NCBI RefSeq assembly: GCF_000280925.3
Contig: NZ_CP012109.1
Span: forward strand, 2,376,501-2,440,500
DNA from: Myxococcus hansupus
GTDB taxonomy: Bacteria; Myxococcota; Myxococcia; Myxococcales; Myxococcaceae
Direction: 5' to 3'
Length of the DNA stretch: 64,000 nucleotides
Shown: positions 51,886-64,000 of the stretch, in pieces
How the letters are laid out: each line of letters opens with the position of its first letter
Position numbering within the stretch: position 1 is the stretch's first letter
Notes under the pieces: generated by a model
Database searches by the model: none
Told to the model about the DNA's origin: nothing
The model's input: the letters and a program-made list of their open reading frames with translations, nothing else
Translations under genes and position numbers: made by a program

Positions 51886-52050
51886 GTGAGGACTCCCGGA
51901 GGACGTTGAAAGAACGACTCTTTCGGCACGTTAGCGTCCCCTGCAACGGGGGGCCACCCTGGACGCCTGGCCCGGCCCTGGGCCGGAGGTTCCGGGGCCC
52001 GGTCATTCCTAGCGTTGACACACCACTGTCATCCGCGGGGACCGAAAGCC

Positions 52051-54705
52051 ATGGCCACTGTCTGCGACCTCTGTCACCAGCGCCCGGCGACCACCCGGGT
52101 CACCCGCGTCGTCGGGAACCGGCGCACCACCGAATCCCTCTGTGACGTCTGCAGCAGTCAGCGCTCCCGCTTCGGGCGCATGGGCCTGGGGACCTCGCTC
52201 TTCGACCAGTTCTTCAGTGATTTCGGCGGCGAGGACCTCGGCGGCCTGTCCCAGGCCATTCAACAGCCGGTGGAGCGCTACGACATCACGGAGGCCTTCT
52301 CCGACGAGACGCGGCGCGTTCTGGAGGGCGCCTTCGAGGCGGCGCGCAACGCGGGGGCGGCTTCCATCGACACGGAGCATCTGCTCGTGGCGCTCGCGAA
52401 GGACCCGTTGGGCCGCACGGCGCTCGCCCGGATGAAGCTGGACCCCGCGCGCGTCGCCGAGCGCGCCGAGTCCGAGATGCGCCGGGGCAAGCGGCCCATG
52501 GAGCGCCCGGAGCTCTCTCCGCATGCCAAGCGGGCGCTGGAGCTGGCGTATCAGGAGGCCTACGAGCTGGGCCACTCCTACGTGGGACCCGAGCACGTGC
52601 TGCTGGGCCTGCTCCAGGAAGGCGAGGGGCTGGCGTCGGAAATTCTGCGGGAGCAGGGGGCGCAGCACGGCAAGGCCCGCGCGGCCGTGGCGGAGGCGCT
52701 GGCGCCGTCGTCCGAGTCGCGCCGCTCGCCCACGCCCACGTTGGACGAGTACTGCCGTGACCTCACGCGCATGGCCTCGGAGGGAAAGCTGGACCCGGTG
52801 GTGGGGCGCGCCAACGAAATCGAGACCACGCTCGAAATCCTCTCCCGCCGGACGAAGAACAACCCGGTGCTCATCGGCGAGCCGGGCGTGGGCAAGACGG
52901 CCATCGTGGAGGGCATCGCCCAACGCATCATCTCCGCCGCCGTCCCGGACACGCTGCGCGACAAGCGCGTCCTGCAATTGGACCTCTCCGGCCTGCTCGC
53001 GGGCAGCAAGTACCGCGGCGAGTTCGAGGAGCGCCTGAAGAAGGTCATGGACGAGGTGAAGGCCCACAGCGAGGAAATCGTCCTCTTCATCGACGAGATT
53101 CACACCATCGTCGGCGCGGGCGCGGCGGAGGGCGCCATGGACGCGGGCAACATGCTCAAGCCGTCCCTGGCCCGGGGCGAGCTGCACGTCATTGGGGCCA
53201 CCACGCTGGACGAGTACCGCAAGCGCATCGAGAAGGACGCCGCGTTGGAGCGCCGCTTCCAGCCCGTGGTCGTCCCCGAACCGACGGCCGAGCAGGCCAT
53301 CGAGATTCTCCGAGGCCTCAAGGACCGGTACGAGTCGCACCACCGCGTGCGCATCGCGGACGACGCGCTCGTCGCGGCGGTGGAGTTGTCGGACCGCTAC
53401 GTCACCGGCCGCTTCCTGCCCGACAAGGCCATCGATTTGGTGGACCAGGCCGCCGCCCGGGTGCGGCTGCGCCTCACGTTGCCTCCCGAGCGGCTGGTGA
53501 ACGCCGAGCACGAGGTGGTGAAGGTGAAGCGCGCGCTCGACGAGGCCCGGGACCGCAAGGCGAAGCCCCGCATCCAGGAGCTGGAGTCCAAGCTGCGCGA
53601 CGCGGAGCGGGAGGTGCAGAGCGCGCAGAAGGAGCGCCGCACCCAGAAGTCGAGTGAGACGCCCGAGGTCCGCGCCGAGGACGTGGCGGAGGTGCTGTCC
53701 CGCATGACGGGCATCCCCGTGACGCAGATGACGGAGGACGAGCGCAAGAAGCTGCTGGAGCTGGAGTCCCGCCTGCACGAGCGTGTCATTGGCCAGGACG
53801 AGGCCATCCGCGTGCTGTCACAGTCCATCCGGCGGGCGAGGGCGGGGCTCAAGGATGAGGCGCGGCCCATTGGCTCCTTCCTCTTCCTGGGCCCCACCGG
53901 CGTGGGCAAGACGGAGCTGGCGAAGACGCTGGCGGAGCTGCTCTTCGGCGACGAGAAGGCGCTCATCCGCTTCGACATGAGTGAGTACATGGAAAAGCAT
54001 ACCGTGAGTCGGCTGGTGGGCGCGCCGCCGGGTTATGTCGGCTACGAGGAGGGCGGGCAGCTCACGGAGGCCGTCCGCCGGCGGCCCTACTGCGTGCTCT
54101 TGTTCGACGAGGTGGAGAAGGCGCACCCCGACGTGTTCCACATGCTGCTCCAGGTGCTGGATGACGGACGCCTCACGGACTCGCAGGGCACGGTGGTGAA
54201 CTTCAAGAACACCGTCATCATCTGCACCAGCAACCTGGGCTCGCACCTCATCCAGGAGTCCACCGCGCGCAAGGAGCCCCAGGAGCGGATGCGCGAGCGC
54301 GTCATGGGCGTGCTCAAGGGGCACTTCCCGCCGGAGTTCCTCAACCGCATCGACGAGACGGTCGTCTTCGAGCCGCTCAACCGCGCACAGTTGCGCGCCA
54401 TCGTGGAGTTGATGCTGGAGAAGACGCGCCGCCTGCTGCATGGGCAGGGCATCGACTTGGAGATGACGCCCGCGGCCCTGGAGGCGTTGGTGGACAAGGG
54501 ATGGGACCCCACCTTCGGTGCCCGCCCGCTGCGGCGTGAAATCCAGCGCGCCATCGAAGCGCCGCTCGCGGAGTCCCTCATCTCCGGTTCCATCCGCGAG
54601 AACAGCCGGGTCCGCGCGGACTTCAAGGATGGAAAATTCCGTTTCGAGGAGGCGCAGGCGCCCGAGTCGGAAGAGGCGCAGGCGGAGCCCAGTGCCGTTC
54701 ACTGA
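52051..54705 (+). CDS. clpC: ClpC-like AAA+ unfoldase with N-terminal zinc finger
   Basis: Encodes 884 residues from the ATG at 52051. It opens with a four-Cys zinc finger (C5, C8, C31, C34; CDLCHQRP...LCDVC) resembling McsA, followed by two Clp_N repeats (~90-225). The first AAA domain has [14 protein letters not shown] and [10 protein letters not shown], and a short ~60-residue charged coiled coil lies between the AAA domains. The second AAA domain has [31 protein letters not shown] and the Clp D2-small domain. It should unfold substrates for ClpP or act alone. The ClpP-binding loop is not securely identified. It is divergent from the 144-residue gene. Confidence 0.88.
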
Positions 54706-60605: not shown

Positions 60606-62900
60606 TCATCCGAGGCCGCTCAACTCGATTCGCCCCTCCACCCCCACGCCGAGCTTCACCTGGGGGGGAGTGCTGGAAGATTGAGCCGCCAGCCACTGCG
60701 AAAGGGGCGCCACCACGTGTTGCTCCACGGCACGCTTGAGTGGCCTTGCCCCGTAGCGAGCGTCGAAGCCGACGCGCGCCAGATGCTCCACCACGTCCTC
60801 CCCGAACGTCACCGTCACCCCTCGGCGGCGGAGCCCCTCGCGAGCGAGGGCGGCTTCCAGCGTGCGCCGGGCGAGTGACGCGATGACGTCCGGCGTGAGC
60901 GCGCGGTAGGGCACCACCCGGTCCAACCGGTTCAGCAGCTCGGGCCGGAAGAAGGCCGCCGCGGCGCCCAGGTAGTGCGCCTCACGCTCCCGGACGCCGG
61001 GCTCTCCAAATCCCAGCGAGCGCCCGGCGCTGTCCGCGCCCAGATTGCTCGTGAGCAAGACGACGGTGTTGCGGAAGCTGACGGTGCGGCCCGTGGCGTC
61101 GGTGAGGCGGCCTTCGCCCATGACCTGCAACAGCAGGTCATGGACGCCCGGGTCCGCCTTCTCGACTTCGTCCAGCAGCACCACGCCAAAGGGCTGCTCG
61201 CGGACGCGCCGTGTCAGGCTGCCCTGTTGGCCTCCGGCGTCCCCCACCAGGCGCGCGGCGCTGCCTGGCGCGGCGTACTCCGCCATGTCGAAGCGCGCCA
61301 GCCGGGCCACGTCGCCGAACAGGTACTCGGCCAGCGCGAGCGCCGACTCCGTCTTGCCCACGCCCGTGGGACCCAGCAGCAGGAAGGCCCCCAACGGACG
61401 CGCGGGGTCCGCGAGGCCCGTCTTCAAGGTGACGACCAGGTTGCGCAGCAGGAGGGTGGCTTCGTCCTGGCCCACCACGCGCTCCCGGAAGCGGCGCAGC
61501 AGCGCGTCCGGGTCCAGGCGGATGGCCGTGTCCACCAGCTCGCGCGGGTACCCGGTCCGGGTGCAGAAGGCGCGCGTCACCGAGGCGGCGTCCACCTCAC
61601 CTGCGGTACAGGGCTCCGTGCTGGCGGCGCGCAGCAGGGACACCGCGCCGCCGGGCGAGGGCCCCGCGCCGAAGCGCTCCGTGAGTTCGTCAGCGCGGTC
61701 CAGTGCCTCCGGCATGAAGCGCACCTTGCGCGCGCGGCCCACCCGGTGCGAGGCCTGCTGCAGCGCGGTGCGGGCCGAATGCGGTGAGAGGGGCGCCACG
61801 GCGATGTGCCGGAGCGCTTGCAGGAACGCCGCGTGGGTCCGCTCCGCGCGGGCCACGTCCTCCGGCGTCGCCTCCAGGATGAGGGAGACCTCGCCGCTCT
61901 CCAGCGCGGGCAGCAGTTGCCGCGCCACATCCAAGCCCGTGTCACCGCCGCCCAGCGAGAGCAGCTCCGACAGGCTGTCCAGGTGCAGCACGGCCCGGCG
62001 GATTCGCAGGGCCTCCACCATCTGCTTCACGCGCTCCTGCCACTGCCCCAGGTAGCGCATGCCCGCCATGATGCGGTTGCCGGAGGAGCTGTAGACCTCC
62101 ATCCCGAGAAGGGGCGAGCCCTTCGTGGCCGCCTCCGCGCGCTGAACGAGTTCATGGACCAGGGCCGTCTTGCCCACGGACGACGGGCCCACCAGGAGCA
62201 CGCTGGCGCGGGTGCGCGAGGTGACGGCCTCCGCGAGCCGGGACACCTCTGTGTCTCGCTCCCATGCGCGCTCCAGCAGGCCCGCGCGGGCTTCCTCGTT
62301 GAGGCACCGGCTGGCTTCCGCGAGGCCCGGTGGTGGCGCCTGGCGCCGCTGCGGCTTCACCGAATCACCAGCGCGGGCGCGCGGCGTGTCCCGGAAGCGG
62401 ACCGGCACCGACAGGGTCTCCACCTGCTCCTCGCCCACGTAGGCCAGCGCCCTCAGCCGGTCGAGCGGCGCGAGGTAGAGCTCGTGACGGACCAACTCCT
62501 CGACGTAGGGCTCCAGGTCCGCCTCGTCGTACAGCGTCCCCTGGACATCCACGCGCGGTACCCACACCCGCAGGGACCGGTGACCTGAAGCTTCCTTGCG
62601 GGGCGCGCGGGATTTCGCCCCGTGCGTCAGCACGGTGAGCCGCAAGGGGACCGACAGCATCTTCCCGTGTTCGAGCGCGCGCACGGTCAGCGTCGTCCTC
62701 CGCTGACGCAAATCGCTCCAGTGCGTCTCTTCGTCCCAGAGTTCTCCTCGCTTGAGGAGCCGGCCCACCACCGCCGCGATGTCGAGCCGCGCGGCGTTCA
62801 GCGTCGGCGCGAAGGACGCCAGGTGTGGATGGGTGAGGACATGCGCCGCCACGCCCAGTCCGGGATAGGTGCGCACGAAGAGGTGGACGTTCTTTTCCAT
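60606..62900 (-). CDS. Double-AAA Clp-like ATPase with a novel N-terminal domain
   Basis: Encodes 764 residues from the ATG at 62900. Residues 1-200 form an uncharacterised beta-rich domain in place of Clp_N repeats. The first AAA has Walker A GPSSVGKT (238-245), but its Walker B-like segment is VLHLDS (~304-309), lacking the usual Glu. The second AAA is canonical: GPTGVGKT (510-517), VVLLDEVEK (573-581), sensor LLTSN and a Clp D2-small C-terminus (YGARPLKRAVEQHVV). There is no long middle domain. It is coupled to the gene upstream (stop TGA, one base, ATG). It is probably a remodelling ATPase for a partner complex rather than a house-keeping Clp. It converges on sodB. Confidence 0.82.
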   Translation of the reverse strand: MEKNVHLFVRTYPGLGVAAHVLTHPHLASFAPTLNAARLDIAAVVGRLLKRGELWDEETHWSDLRQRRTTLTVRALEHGKMLSVPLRLTVLTHGAKSRAPRKEASGHRSLRVWVPRVDVQGTLYDEADLEPYVEELVRHELYLAPLDRLRALAYVGEEQVETLSVPVRFRDTPRARAGDSVKPQRRQAPPPGLAEASRCLNEEARAGLLERAWERDTEVSRLAEAVTSRTRASVLLVGPSSVGKTALVHELVQRAEAATKGSPLLGMEVYSSSGNRIMAGMRYLGQWQERVKQMVEALRIRRAVLHLDSLSELLSLGGGDTGLDVARQLLPALESGEVSLILEATPEDVARAERTHAAFLQALRHIAVAPLSPHSARTALQQASHRVGRARKVRFMPEALDRADELTERFGAGPSPGGAVSLLRAASTEPCTAGEVDAASVTRAFCTRTGYPRELVDTAIRLDPDALLRRFRERVVGQDEATLLLRNLVVTLKTGLADPARPLGAFLLLGPTGVGKTESALALAEYLFGDVARLARFDMAEYAAPGSAARLVGDAGGQQGSLTRRVREQPFGVVLLDEVEKADPGVHDLLLQVMGEGRLTDATGRTVSFRNTVVLLTSNLGADSAGRSLGFGEPGVREREAHYLGAAAAFFRPELLNRLDRVVPYRALTPDVIASLARRTLEAALAREGLRRRGVTVTFGEDVVEHLARVGFDARYGARPLKRAVEQHVVAPLSQWLAAQSSSTPPQVKLGVGVEGRIELSGLG

Positions 62901-62901
62901 G

Positions 62902-64000
62902 TCAGTCGTGTCCCTGGGTGGGCTTCCGGAGCACCCGCGCGGCCCAGGCGTGCGCCTCCACGGGCCGGCGCCCGCTCGCCACATGCGTGAGCTCGGTCGA
63001 GTTGTGAGGGCGCCCGGTGGTGACTCCGCCAGGGCCCCGCAGGATGACGTGGCTGTTCGCGGCCACTGACGCGGTGCCGCTCCTTCGTCCTTCGCGTTCG
63101 GCGGCGCGCTCGGCATCCCACGCCTTCACCACGCGGGGCACGTCTTCCAGGCCTTGTACGTCCTCGGGCAGATGCTCCACCCGGACCAGGACTTGTCGCG
63201 GCCCATCGCCCTGGACGAGGTCCACCAGTGCATAGCCCCGCAGGGGCGCGAGCACCTCGCGCAGCCCGACGGCCGACATCCGCACGGTGACACGCCGCAG
63301 CTCCAGGTCGTCGGCCCGCTCGTCTCCATGGCGGAACCACTCGGTGCGCCCATCGGCGTGGACGGCCTCCAGGTACATCGCCGTCTCCGCGAGGGCGAAG
63401 GGAAGGGAGTTGGTCACGGTCCACACCGCGGAGGGCGTGGCGTCTCCGAGCCCCTCCACCAGCACCGTCACGGCGTCCGTTCCCCGTGCCACGTGCTCGA
63501 GCTGATGTTCGACCCAGGCGGCTTCGTCGCGGAGGGCCAGCACCCGGGGGCGTGCGCGCCGGAGCTGCTCCTCGTTCGAGATGGGCAGCGGACGCTCTTC
63601 ATAGACAGTCCGCTGACGCAGGCCCAGGTGGCCCACCTGGTTCGAGTAGGAGGTAATCACTTGCTTCACGGTGGACTCGGGCGCCCGCGCTTCCTGGTAG
63701 TCACGTGGTGCCAGTTCGTACTCGCGAATGTCCGTGGCCTCGAGCGCGAGCAGGCGCAGTCGCTCCTCCAACTCCCGGGCCTCGGACGAGCCCTCCGCGG
63801 ACAGCAACGCCGCCAGCCGCGCGCCGGTCTCCTCGAGCAGGCTGGAGACCTCCGCCAGTGTCCAGGACGAGGCCGGCCGCTCCGGTGTCCACGCTGGCGC
63901 GTTGGCCAACAACTCCACCGACACCCGCATGTCGTCGCCGTTCCGCAGCAACTCCACGCGCGCGAGGTCGTCCGCGCTCCGCCGTATCAGGTGATGGGCC
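62902..64000 (-). CDS. Uncharacterised partner of the Clp-like ATPase (5' partial)
   Basis: The frame is open to the window end, so the start lies beyond 64000; an internal GTG at 63957 is not taken as the start. The visible ~365 residues are soluble, helix/strand mixed, with SSWTLAEVSSLLEETGARLA, QVITSYSNQVGHLGLRQRTV and a repeated beta-rich C-terminal half. No domain is recognised. The stop is separated by one base from the ATPase ATG, so the two are translationally coupled and likely work together. Confidence 0.7.
   Translation of the reverse strand, partial: AHHLIRRSADDLARVELLRNGDDMRVSVELLANAPAWTPERPASSWTLAEVSSLLEETGARLAALLSAEGSSEARELEERLRLLALEATDIREYELAPRDYQEARAPESTVKQVITSYSNQVGHLGLRQRTVYEERPLPISNEEQLRRARPRVLALRDEAAWVEHQLEHVARGTDAVTVLVEGLGDATPSAVWTVTNSLPFALAETAMYLEAVHADGRTEWFRHGDERADDLELRRVTVRMSAVGLREVLAPLRGYALVDLVQGDGPRQVLVRVEHLPEDVQGLEDVPRVVKAWDAERAAEREGRRSGTASVAANSHVILRGPGGVTTGRPHNSTELTHVASGRRPVEAHAWAARVLRKPTQGHD

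Follow-up and report, generated by a model that had tools for sequence, protein, structure and literature searches.

The window, a stretch of 64,000 nucleotides from Myxococcus hansupus (G000:C1:2376501-2440500 in a genome of 9.49 Mb on a single contig), ends within a set of three adjacent genes for Clp-type ATPases, here called P0003, P0002 and P0001 in the order in which they are read. These genes probably form one operon for a heteromeric ATPase of the Clp type (Hsp100), the three paralogs being probable subunits of a mixed hexamer. Features of the trio, all on the minus strand, are given below with window positions except where the contig is named.

60606..62900, minus strand: P0001, third gene of the operon, a 764-residue Clp-type ATPase (N-domain, AAA1, AAA2) without a C-terminal extension
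62331..62900, minus strand: P0001 N-domain, residues 1-190, without a Pfam match; AlphaFold2 predicted local distance difference test (pLDDT) score 81.9; weak similarity to HicB-type folds
61974..61988, minus strand: degenerate AAA1 Walker B LHLDS, P0001 residues 305-309, no D-E in 33/33 rows
61350..61373, minus strand: AAA2 Walker A GPTGVGKT, P0001 residues 510-517, intact
61206..61265, minus strand: region of the AAA2 GYVG pore loop, P0001 residues 546-565, deleted according to the motif alignment with canonical Clps
61008..61016, minus strand: LGF where ClpA has its ClpP-binding loop, P0001 residues 629-631 (MGF in ClpA of this genome)
62902..64000, minus strand: C-terminal part of P0002, a second Clp-type ATPase of 1128 residues with a C-terminal extension of about 345 residues; the whole gene is G000:C1:2439402-2442788 and starts beyond the window
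G000:C1:2442793-2446200, minus strand: P0003, first gene of the operon, 1135 residues, wholly outside the window; its last 330 residues or so form a release-factor-2-like domain without GGQ

The start of P0001 was placed at the ATG at 62900 (MEKNVHLF...), which is conserved and aligned in orthologs; the longer open reading frame listed for this gene (60606-63116) overlaps the upstream gene. As stated in the original prediction and read directly from the sequence, this ATG lies one base past the TGA of the preceding gene. In 7 relatives the corresponding gap was 1 or 3 bases and the gap between the P0003 stop and the P0002 start was 2-4 bases. Starts were uncertain in an eighth relative (L056, where the start used lacks a start codon), in which the trio genes may overlap, and P0002 was split into two frames in a metagenome-assembled locus (L053). 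The upstream partner, originally taken for an unknown protein, is P0002, itself a Clp-type ATPase cut by the window edge, and reading beyond 64 kb also disclosed the third Clp-type gene.

Matches to AAA_2, AAA (two stretches, with P-loops in both modules) and ClpB_D2-small were noted by Pfam in all three proteins. Absence of Clp_N from P0001, another point of the original prediction, was borne out by the finding of these three families (25 of the 34 families of P0001 were listed) and of no family at E<=10 when the N-domain (residues 1-190) was searched alone. All three proteins scored far below every NCBIfam cut-off shown, P0001 reaching 320 bits for ClpB (cut-off 1232) and 292 bits for ClpA (cut-off 993); ClpA, ClpB and ClpV of this genome passed theirs.

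Motifs of the AAA modules were compared in 33 P0001, 15 P0002 and 14 P0003 rows, comprising this genome and orthologs with identical and N-terminally incomplete sequences dropped. The degeneracy of the first Walker B, reported earlier for this one sequence, was a constant feature of P0001, with D-E in 0/33 rows, LDS in 28 and MDS, MDR or VDS in the remaining five (one D-R, otherwise D-S). The corresponding residues were D-D in P0002 and G-H in P0003 (one G-R), with D-E in none, and the AAA1 arginine-finger pair was lost from all three proteins in the rows aligned with canonical Clps. An aromatic AAA1 pore loop was kept in P0001 (YLG, 33/33) and P0002 (YVG, once FVG) and was variable in P0003 (FF, FI, MM, MW, GW or MS). 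In AAA2 of all three proteins, Walker A, the DE of Walker B, the arginine finger and sensor 2 were kept. The AAA2 GYVG loop, present in all five canonical Clps aligned from this genome, was found in 0/33 P0001, 0/15 P0002 and 0/14 P0003 rows. At the position of the ClpP loop, between AAA2 sensor 1 and the arginine finger, GF was present in 33/33 P0001, 15/15 P0002 and 14/14 P0003 rows; it was also present in ClpA and in one other Clp protein of this genome (L110) and not in its ClpB, its ClpV or a ClpC-type protein encoded in the window. In ClpP partners, loops of this type (hydrophobic-G-F/L) bind ClpP.

The extension at the C-terminus of P0003 proved to be related to release factors. PCRF was matched by Pfam in 9/13 P0003 orthologs (best E 1e-6) and in 5/5 further orthologs (E 2.2e-5 to 0.06, one above the curated cut-off, another exactly at it). 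Profile-profile comparison of the extension with 32 real release factors gave 70% and E 4e-5 with 13 rows and 92.5% and E 5e-7 with 20 rows (E 0.045 for the reversed control of the latter), and 9/9 matches of the extension profile to PDB sequences were to RF2, the best at E 0.0012. An AlphaFold2 model of the extension from the L042 ortholog (pLDDT 86.1, predicted template-modelling score 0.79) was matched by release factors in 40/40 Foldseek matches at E<=0.001 (best 1.1e-10), two 9d7r chains being counted as such by an RF1 entry, and was aligned with RF2 by VIA at Z 16.9 over 260 residues (root-mean-square deviation, rmsd, 5.8). Since VIA rows that leave out the helical domain still matched (Z 12.2-13.2, rmsd 3.2-3.9, 142-155 residues), this likeness is not merely that of a helical bundle. 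GGQ was present in 32/32 real release factors and in 0/20 P0003 rows. The tail motif DxRTG, in contrast, was kept in 18/20 P0003 rows; it was found in 1/32 release factors of a set that is mostly of RF1 type, namely in the RF2-type factor of this genome (L118). Because the RF2 fold and the DxRTG tail are kept and GGQ is absent, the extension is described as RF2 (domains 1 and 2 and the C-terminal tail) minus its catalytic GGQ domain, a homology well supported by sequence profiles and by the predicted model. It is this extension, rather than the N-domain singled out in the original prediction, that is the more telling novelty of the locus. In genus g18 the release-factor-like domain of P0003 contained an inserted module resembling the C-terminal domain of ribosomal L7/L12 (L104:2853-3932; in L056 by eye); the match was 25.9 bits in L104, equal to the cut-off, and at best E 0.029 in one member of A4.

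The three genes were conserved together. In the family, the P0001 N-domain was found in 38/96 genomes, including 27/27 of the genus, 7/16 of g20 and four others. Among 145 genomes of the order, 39 contained the P0002 N-domain; all but one of these (38) also contained the P0001 N-domain, and the P0003 N-domain occurred in the same 39 and, as weak matches, in five more. All three matches were on one contig in 33/39 genomes (that of P0003 being cut by the contig end in G012); contig breaks fell between them in five (G061, G064, G071, G094 and G110), and in G049 the contig ends within P0002, so that P0001, for which there was no match, presumably lies past the contig end. Among 14 loci compared, the order P0003-P0002-P0001 was kept wherever the stretch reached and no neighbouring gene was common to all as an additional conserved partner; a large lectin-like gene preceded P0003 in five of them, the copy in this genome matching Laminin_G_3. 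A pattern scan of one genome per species over 84,980 species, which detects close relatives only, gave 20 loci, 19 of which were myxobacterial by name (Myxococcus, Corallococcus, Pyxidicoccus, Archangium and 'Myxococcaceae bacterium'). The bacteria in which the trio is conserved are predatory soil dwellers. The twentieth locus (L041, BNCN01000006.1), labelled Comamonas sp. KCTC 72670, contained a trio 91-94% identical and is probably from a misnamed Myxococcus genome. A defence system was also considered and was rejected, PADLOC having matched only generic AAA parts.

The pairing of P0001 with P0002, on which the original prediction had staked its case, is therefore conserved. Its suggestion of an AAA machine for an undescribed myxobacterial complex stood as regards conservation of the genes as a unit and fell as regards the partner, which is not a non-ATPase and is accompanied by a third Clp ATPase. 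The earlier observation was correct; the interpretation placed on it was correct only by half and not broad enough.

A second, diverged trio (Q3-Q2-Q1) was reached through the five weak P0003 matches; it occurs in genera g17 and g21 and has the order and the long-long-short layout of the first. Four of the five loci fetched were complete (L170, L171, L173 and L174), with a Q3 of 1116-1121 residues over the loci, a Q2 of 1144-1145 residues in two loci and of 1208-1218 residues with unverified starts in two, and a Q1 of 769 residues in two loci and 777-786 in two. In L172 (G075) only Q3 was found by gene calling, and Q2 and Q1 may have been lost or missed. Best identities between Q proteins and members of the first trio were about 34-39%. 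Motif losses were nevertheless those of the first trio, with no D-E in AAA1, GYVG in 0/13 and an intact Walker A, Walker B and arginine finger in AAA2; in Q2 the threonine of the AAA1 Walker A was lost as well. The loop at the ClpP position was GF in Q1 and GI or GL in Q2 and Q3. PCRF was matched in the Q3 extension in 5/5 cases (best E 3.8e-4), over short stretches and with none above the cut-off. Recurrence of a three-gene set of fixed layout at such divergence is the strongest argument for a complex that requires all three parts. In a tree that included Q rows, from which three canonical rows (ClpV_G000, oth_L037 and oth_L038) had been dropped beforehand, P2 and Q2 were together on one side of a branch (93/90) and all trio rows grouped together (84/95), as did the trio side in a first tree without Q rows (88/89); the groupings of P1 with Q1 (p-AU 0.26) and of P3 with Q3 (p-AU 0.14) lacked support but were not rejected either. 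The grouping of the two trios is unsure because of long branches, and the RF_L111 row of both trees starts with a few wrong-frame residues.

A single-chain relative was noted elsewhere in this genome. This Clp protein, here called Clp-RF, is encoded at G000:C1 ~6856790-6859642 (L111, L165) and clearly matches PCRF (57.8-59.6 bits, cut-off 24). In this assembly the frame is interrupted close to its start, and intact copies were found in relatives. Searches at E<=1e-30 and 1e-20 detected the C-terminal region of Clp-RF in 86/96 genomes of the family, in 39/39 trio genomes and in a single genome from a different family of the order, and in none of 50 genomes sampled outside the order. An open frame of at least 850 residues was present in 77 of the 86 (in-frame stops were flagged in three). 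The Clp part, as read in L111, L119-L126, L167 and L168, had a degenerate AAA1 Walker B, a replaced GYVG loop and a GF loop, and GGQ was found in 0/8 Clp-RF rows. The release-factor match sits at the same place in P0003, Q3 and Clp-RF, namely after AAA2, which points to a common ancestry of the trio and Clp-RF, on which the trees give no verdict. In G076 (L168:6278-11335, minus strand) an RNase J-like gene comes about 70 bases after the Clp-RF gene, with a YajQ-like gene next in line, both named by eye.

Results for the N-domains were less definite. The predicted P0001 N-domain had no significant Foldseek match (best E 0.15, HicB), and VIA rows 1-8 comprised HicB antitoxins, another toxin-antitoxin entry and a putative RNA-binding protein (3kwr), the top two reaching a borderline Z of 8.4 over 79-81 residues. 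Only sub-threshold Pfam matches were obtained for 19 orthologous P0001 N-domains (McyA_C in 7, best E 0.047). A HicB-like fold is accordingly a weak, borderline lead from a model, and the original wager against a known Clp-adaptor fold held among the matches listed, where only HicB-type folds appeared, in a listing that does not exclude such an adaptor. From Z 5.6 downward, VIA rows were mostly release-factor chains, matched only by P0001 residues 1-53 (62742-62900) at Z of about 4.3-5.6 over ~52 residues with an rmsd near 2. The region matched is that of the GGQ domain, the part missing from P0003, and this echo may reflect a common arrangement only. P0002 and P0003 N-domains gave sub-threshold or no matches to Pfam and PDB sequences. 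A HicB-like start was visible by eye in all three N-domains; a common origin of the three was tried and set aside, profile comparison having given nothing reliable (best E 0.0015 at 16% probability).

Expression of what appears to be the same operon has been reported in M. xanthus. According to PMC6617876, MXAN_4823-4825 form one operon of Clp ATPase subunits that is up-regulated by chloramphenicol, with log2 fold changes of 1.47, 2.17 and 1.92 and of 3.57, 2.67 and 2.61. In two other papers, MXAN_4832 is named clpC and M. xanthus is credited with eight clpA/B/C copies, not all of them named in the passages seen (PMC11423568), and MXAN_4829 is named iorB (PMC3222651). Counting genes by eye from P0001, an iorB-like gene and a ClpC-type gene fall at the places of MXAN_4829 and MXAN_4832, and because gene order matches we infer that MXAN_4823-4825 are the trio. 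Induction by a drug that stalls ribosomes fits a role at the ribosome and also a general quality-control response. No such trio appeared in the portion seen of the 2020 eLife paper on conflict systems (PMC7159879), and among the papers listed by keyword searches of an open-access library none described a Clp-RF fusion or a function for the trio.

The reading that we prefer, at a probability somewhat short of even, is that of a heteromeric Clp machine that is driven by AAA2 and attaches to stalled ribosomes through its release-factor-like arm, a function that is inferred. AAA1 would bind and hardly hydrolyse ATP and, with its aromatic or hydrophobic pore loop kept, would form the ring that grips the substrate, while AAA2, in which Walker A and B, the arginine finger and sensor 2 are intact, would burn ATP as the motor but would lack a grip of its own (no GYVG loop). 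The arm of P0003, and perhaps one of P0002, would anchor the ring at stalled ribosomes, within their A site or close to it; since it has neither GGQ nor SPF/PxT, the arm would be unable to terminate translation and would act as an anchor. The anchored ring might then pull on the nascent chain, or on some factor bound to the ribosome, and perhaps hand the substrate to ClpP by way of the GF loop. The trio would on this account be a stress-induced unfoldase for ribosome rescue or quality control, derived from or sister to single-chain Clp-RF. In its fullest form, which we consider doubtful, the proposal is of a new ribosome rescue machine in which a three-subunit AAA+ ring places a catalytically dead release-factor arm in the A site and extracts or unfolds the stuck nascent chain mechanically, possibly into ClpP, with Clp-RF as the core, family-wide form. 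In eukaryotes, stalled ribosomes are a target of AAA+ motors (Cdc48/p97); a bacterial AAA+ ring with a release-factor fold of its own is not known to us, and keyword searches turned up no description of one. Fusion of a Clp ATPase to such a fold would couple protein unfolding directly to translation failure, an idea that is directly testable, the domains being in one polypeptide and the host group including the genetically tractable M. xanthus. The trio would also represent a Clp lineage in which labour is seemingly divided between two rings and among three paralogs that travel together.

Several results weigh against docking at the ribosome. The decoding tripeptide SPF/PxT, present in 32/32 real release factors, was found in 0/20 P0003 rows and 0/8 Clp-RF rows, and with decoding and catalytic motifs both gone the fold may be kept only as a structural module. 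PCRF was not matched in the extension of P0003 from this genome or in that of 4/13 orthologs, and direct comparison of the P0003 extension with the Clp-RF C-terminus was weak (E 0.013 with 13 rows, 2.1e-4 with 20 rows). For the P0002 extension, release-factor homology by Pfam was seen in 0/13 and 0/3, and its match to the release-factor profile was at E 0.35, or at E 0.021 to a pooled profile (in colinear order; controls 0.31 reversed and 0.91 shuffled). PCRF was likewise found in 0/4 Q2 extensions; a short domain-2 motif common to the Q2 extension and Clp-RF was noted at E 0.001 over 25 columns (reversed, 0.86). A second release-factor-like arm is therefore a guess. The trio is absent from 106/145 genomes of the order (five of these have second-trio matches) and is therefore not essential to ribosome rescue there. 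In PMC6617876, chloramphenicol also raises MXAN_4832, the neighbouring ClpC gene, and the authors read induction as degradation of unfolded proteins.

One rival is a heteromeric unfoldase or disaggregase without a link to the ribosome, in which a release-factor-like fold recruited long ago now serves as a structural or substrate-binding arm of a general stress unfoldase feeding ClpP. Loss of SPF/PxT and GGQ, retention of the GF loop in 33/33, 15/15 and 14/14 rows, as in ClpA, and induction together with ClpC (PMC6617876) speak for it. The RF2 fold, however, is still recognizable after large divergence and its matches keep the same place in P0003, Q3 and Clp-RF, and the loop at the ClpP position has changed to GI or GL in Q2 and Q3. 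Taken in this specific form the unfoldase is a real possibility, well below even; as to the broader choice between ribosome rescue and plain unfolding, we would regard the two as about evenly balanced. Loss of the AAA1 Walker B and arginine fingers from all three proteins could also mark them as catalytically crippled regulators that join rings of canonical ClpA or ClpC and adjust their activity instead of forming a machine of their own, but intact AAA2 motifs in all three and a recurring set of three in fixed order, which fits a closed complex better, make this improbable.

Least probable, and disfavoured, is a ClpV-like auxiliary that recycles sheath or effectors for the type VI secretion system (T6SS) encoded nearby. 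A T6SS cluster with its own ClpV does lie about 10 kb beyond the trio (G000:C1:2456730-2473996; other T6SS genes by eye), and in g20 the 7 trio genomes are the 7 with the higher-scoring type of VipB (about 417-418 bits). Transporter-type and other genes (named by eye) nevertheless separate the trio from the cluster, 5/39 trio genomes had no VipB match (G049, G050, G093, G108 and G110, two of them less than 90% complete) and 31/96 family genomes had VipB without P0001. In G008, G009 and G014 the nearest listed VipB was more than 600 kb away (for G008 and G009, among the matches listed).

Two other Clp proteins of this genome were noted in passing. A zinc-finger-like Clp ATPase of the MXAN_4832 type (ClpC; window 52015-54705, plus strand) had intact motifs and no GF loop, and was below every NCBIfam cut-off shown, being closest to ClpB and ClpG/ClpK. 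The Clp-type ATPase of L110 (G000:C1 ~3364004-3366607), likewise below every cut-off shown, had intact Walker and GYVG motifs, a GF loop and a proline-rich linker after its N-terminal region.

Compared with known systems, the trio shares with ClpV/TssH of T6SS the two-AAA Clp fold and a gene cluster nearby; ClpV of this genome, however, scored 1128 bits to TIGR03345 (cut-off 885) and the trio 256-292, and the phylogenetic profile of the trio does not follow that of T6SS. With ClpA/ClpC (Hsp100 class I) it shares the two AAA modules, GF at the ClpP-loop position and, in AAA2, Walker A and B, the arginine finger and sensor 2; in core length the trio agrees with ClpA of this genome and is without the longer insert of its ClpB. 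From ClpA/ClpC the trio differs by absence of Clp_N, loss of the AAA1 Walker B and arginine fingers, deletion of the AAA2 GYVG loop, co-encoding of three paralogs and the release-factor-like extension. That extension has the fold and DxRTG tail motif of RF2 (a class I release factor), from which P0003 differs by lack of the GGQ domain and of SPF/PxT and by fusion behind an AAA2 module. Single-chain Clp-RF of Myxococcaceae (L111, L119-L126) differs from the trio in being one polypeptide without a trio-type N-domain and in keeping what seems to be left of a GGQ domain, of which nothing remains in P0003, and shares with the trio a degenerate AAA1, a changed AAA2 pore loop and the GF loop and, with P0003, an RF2-like C-terminus without GGQ at the same place.

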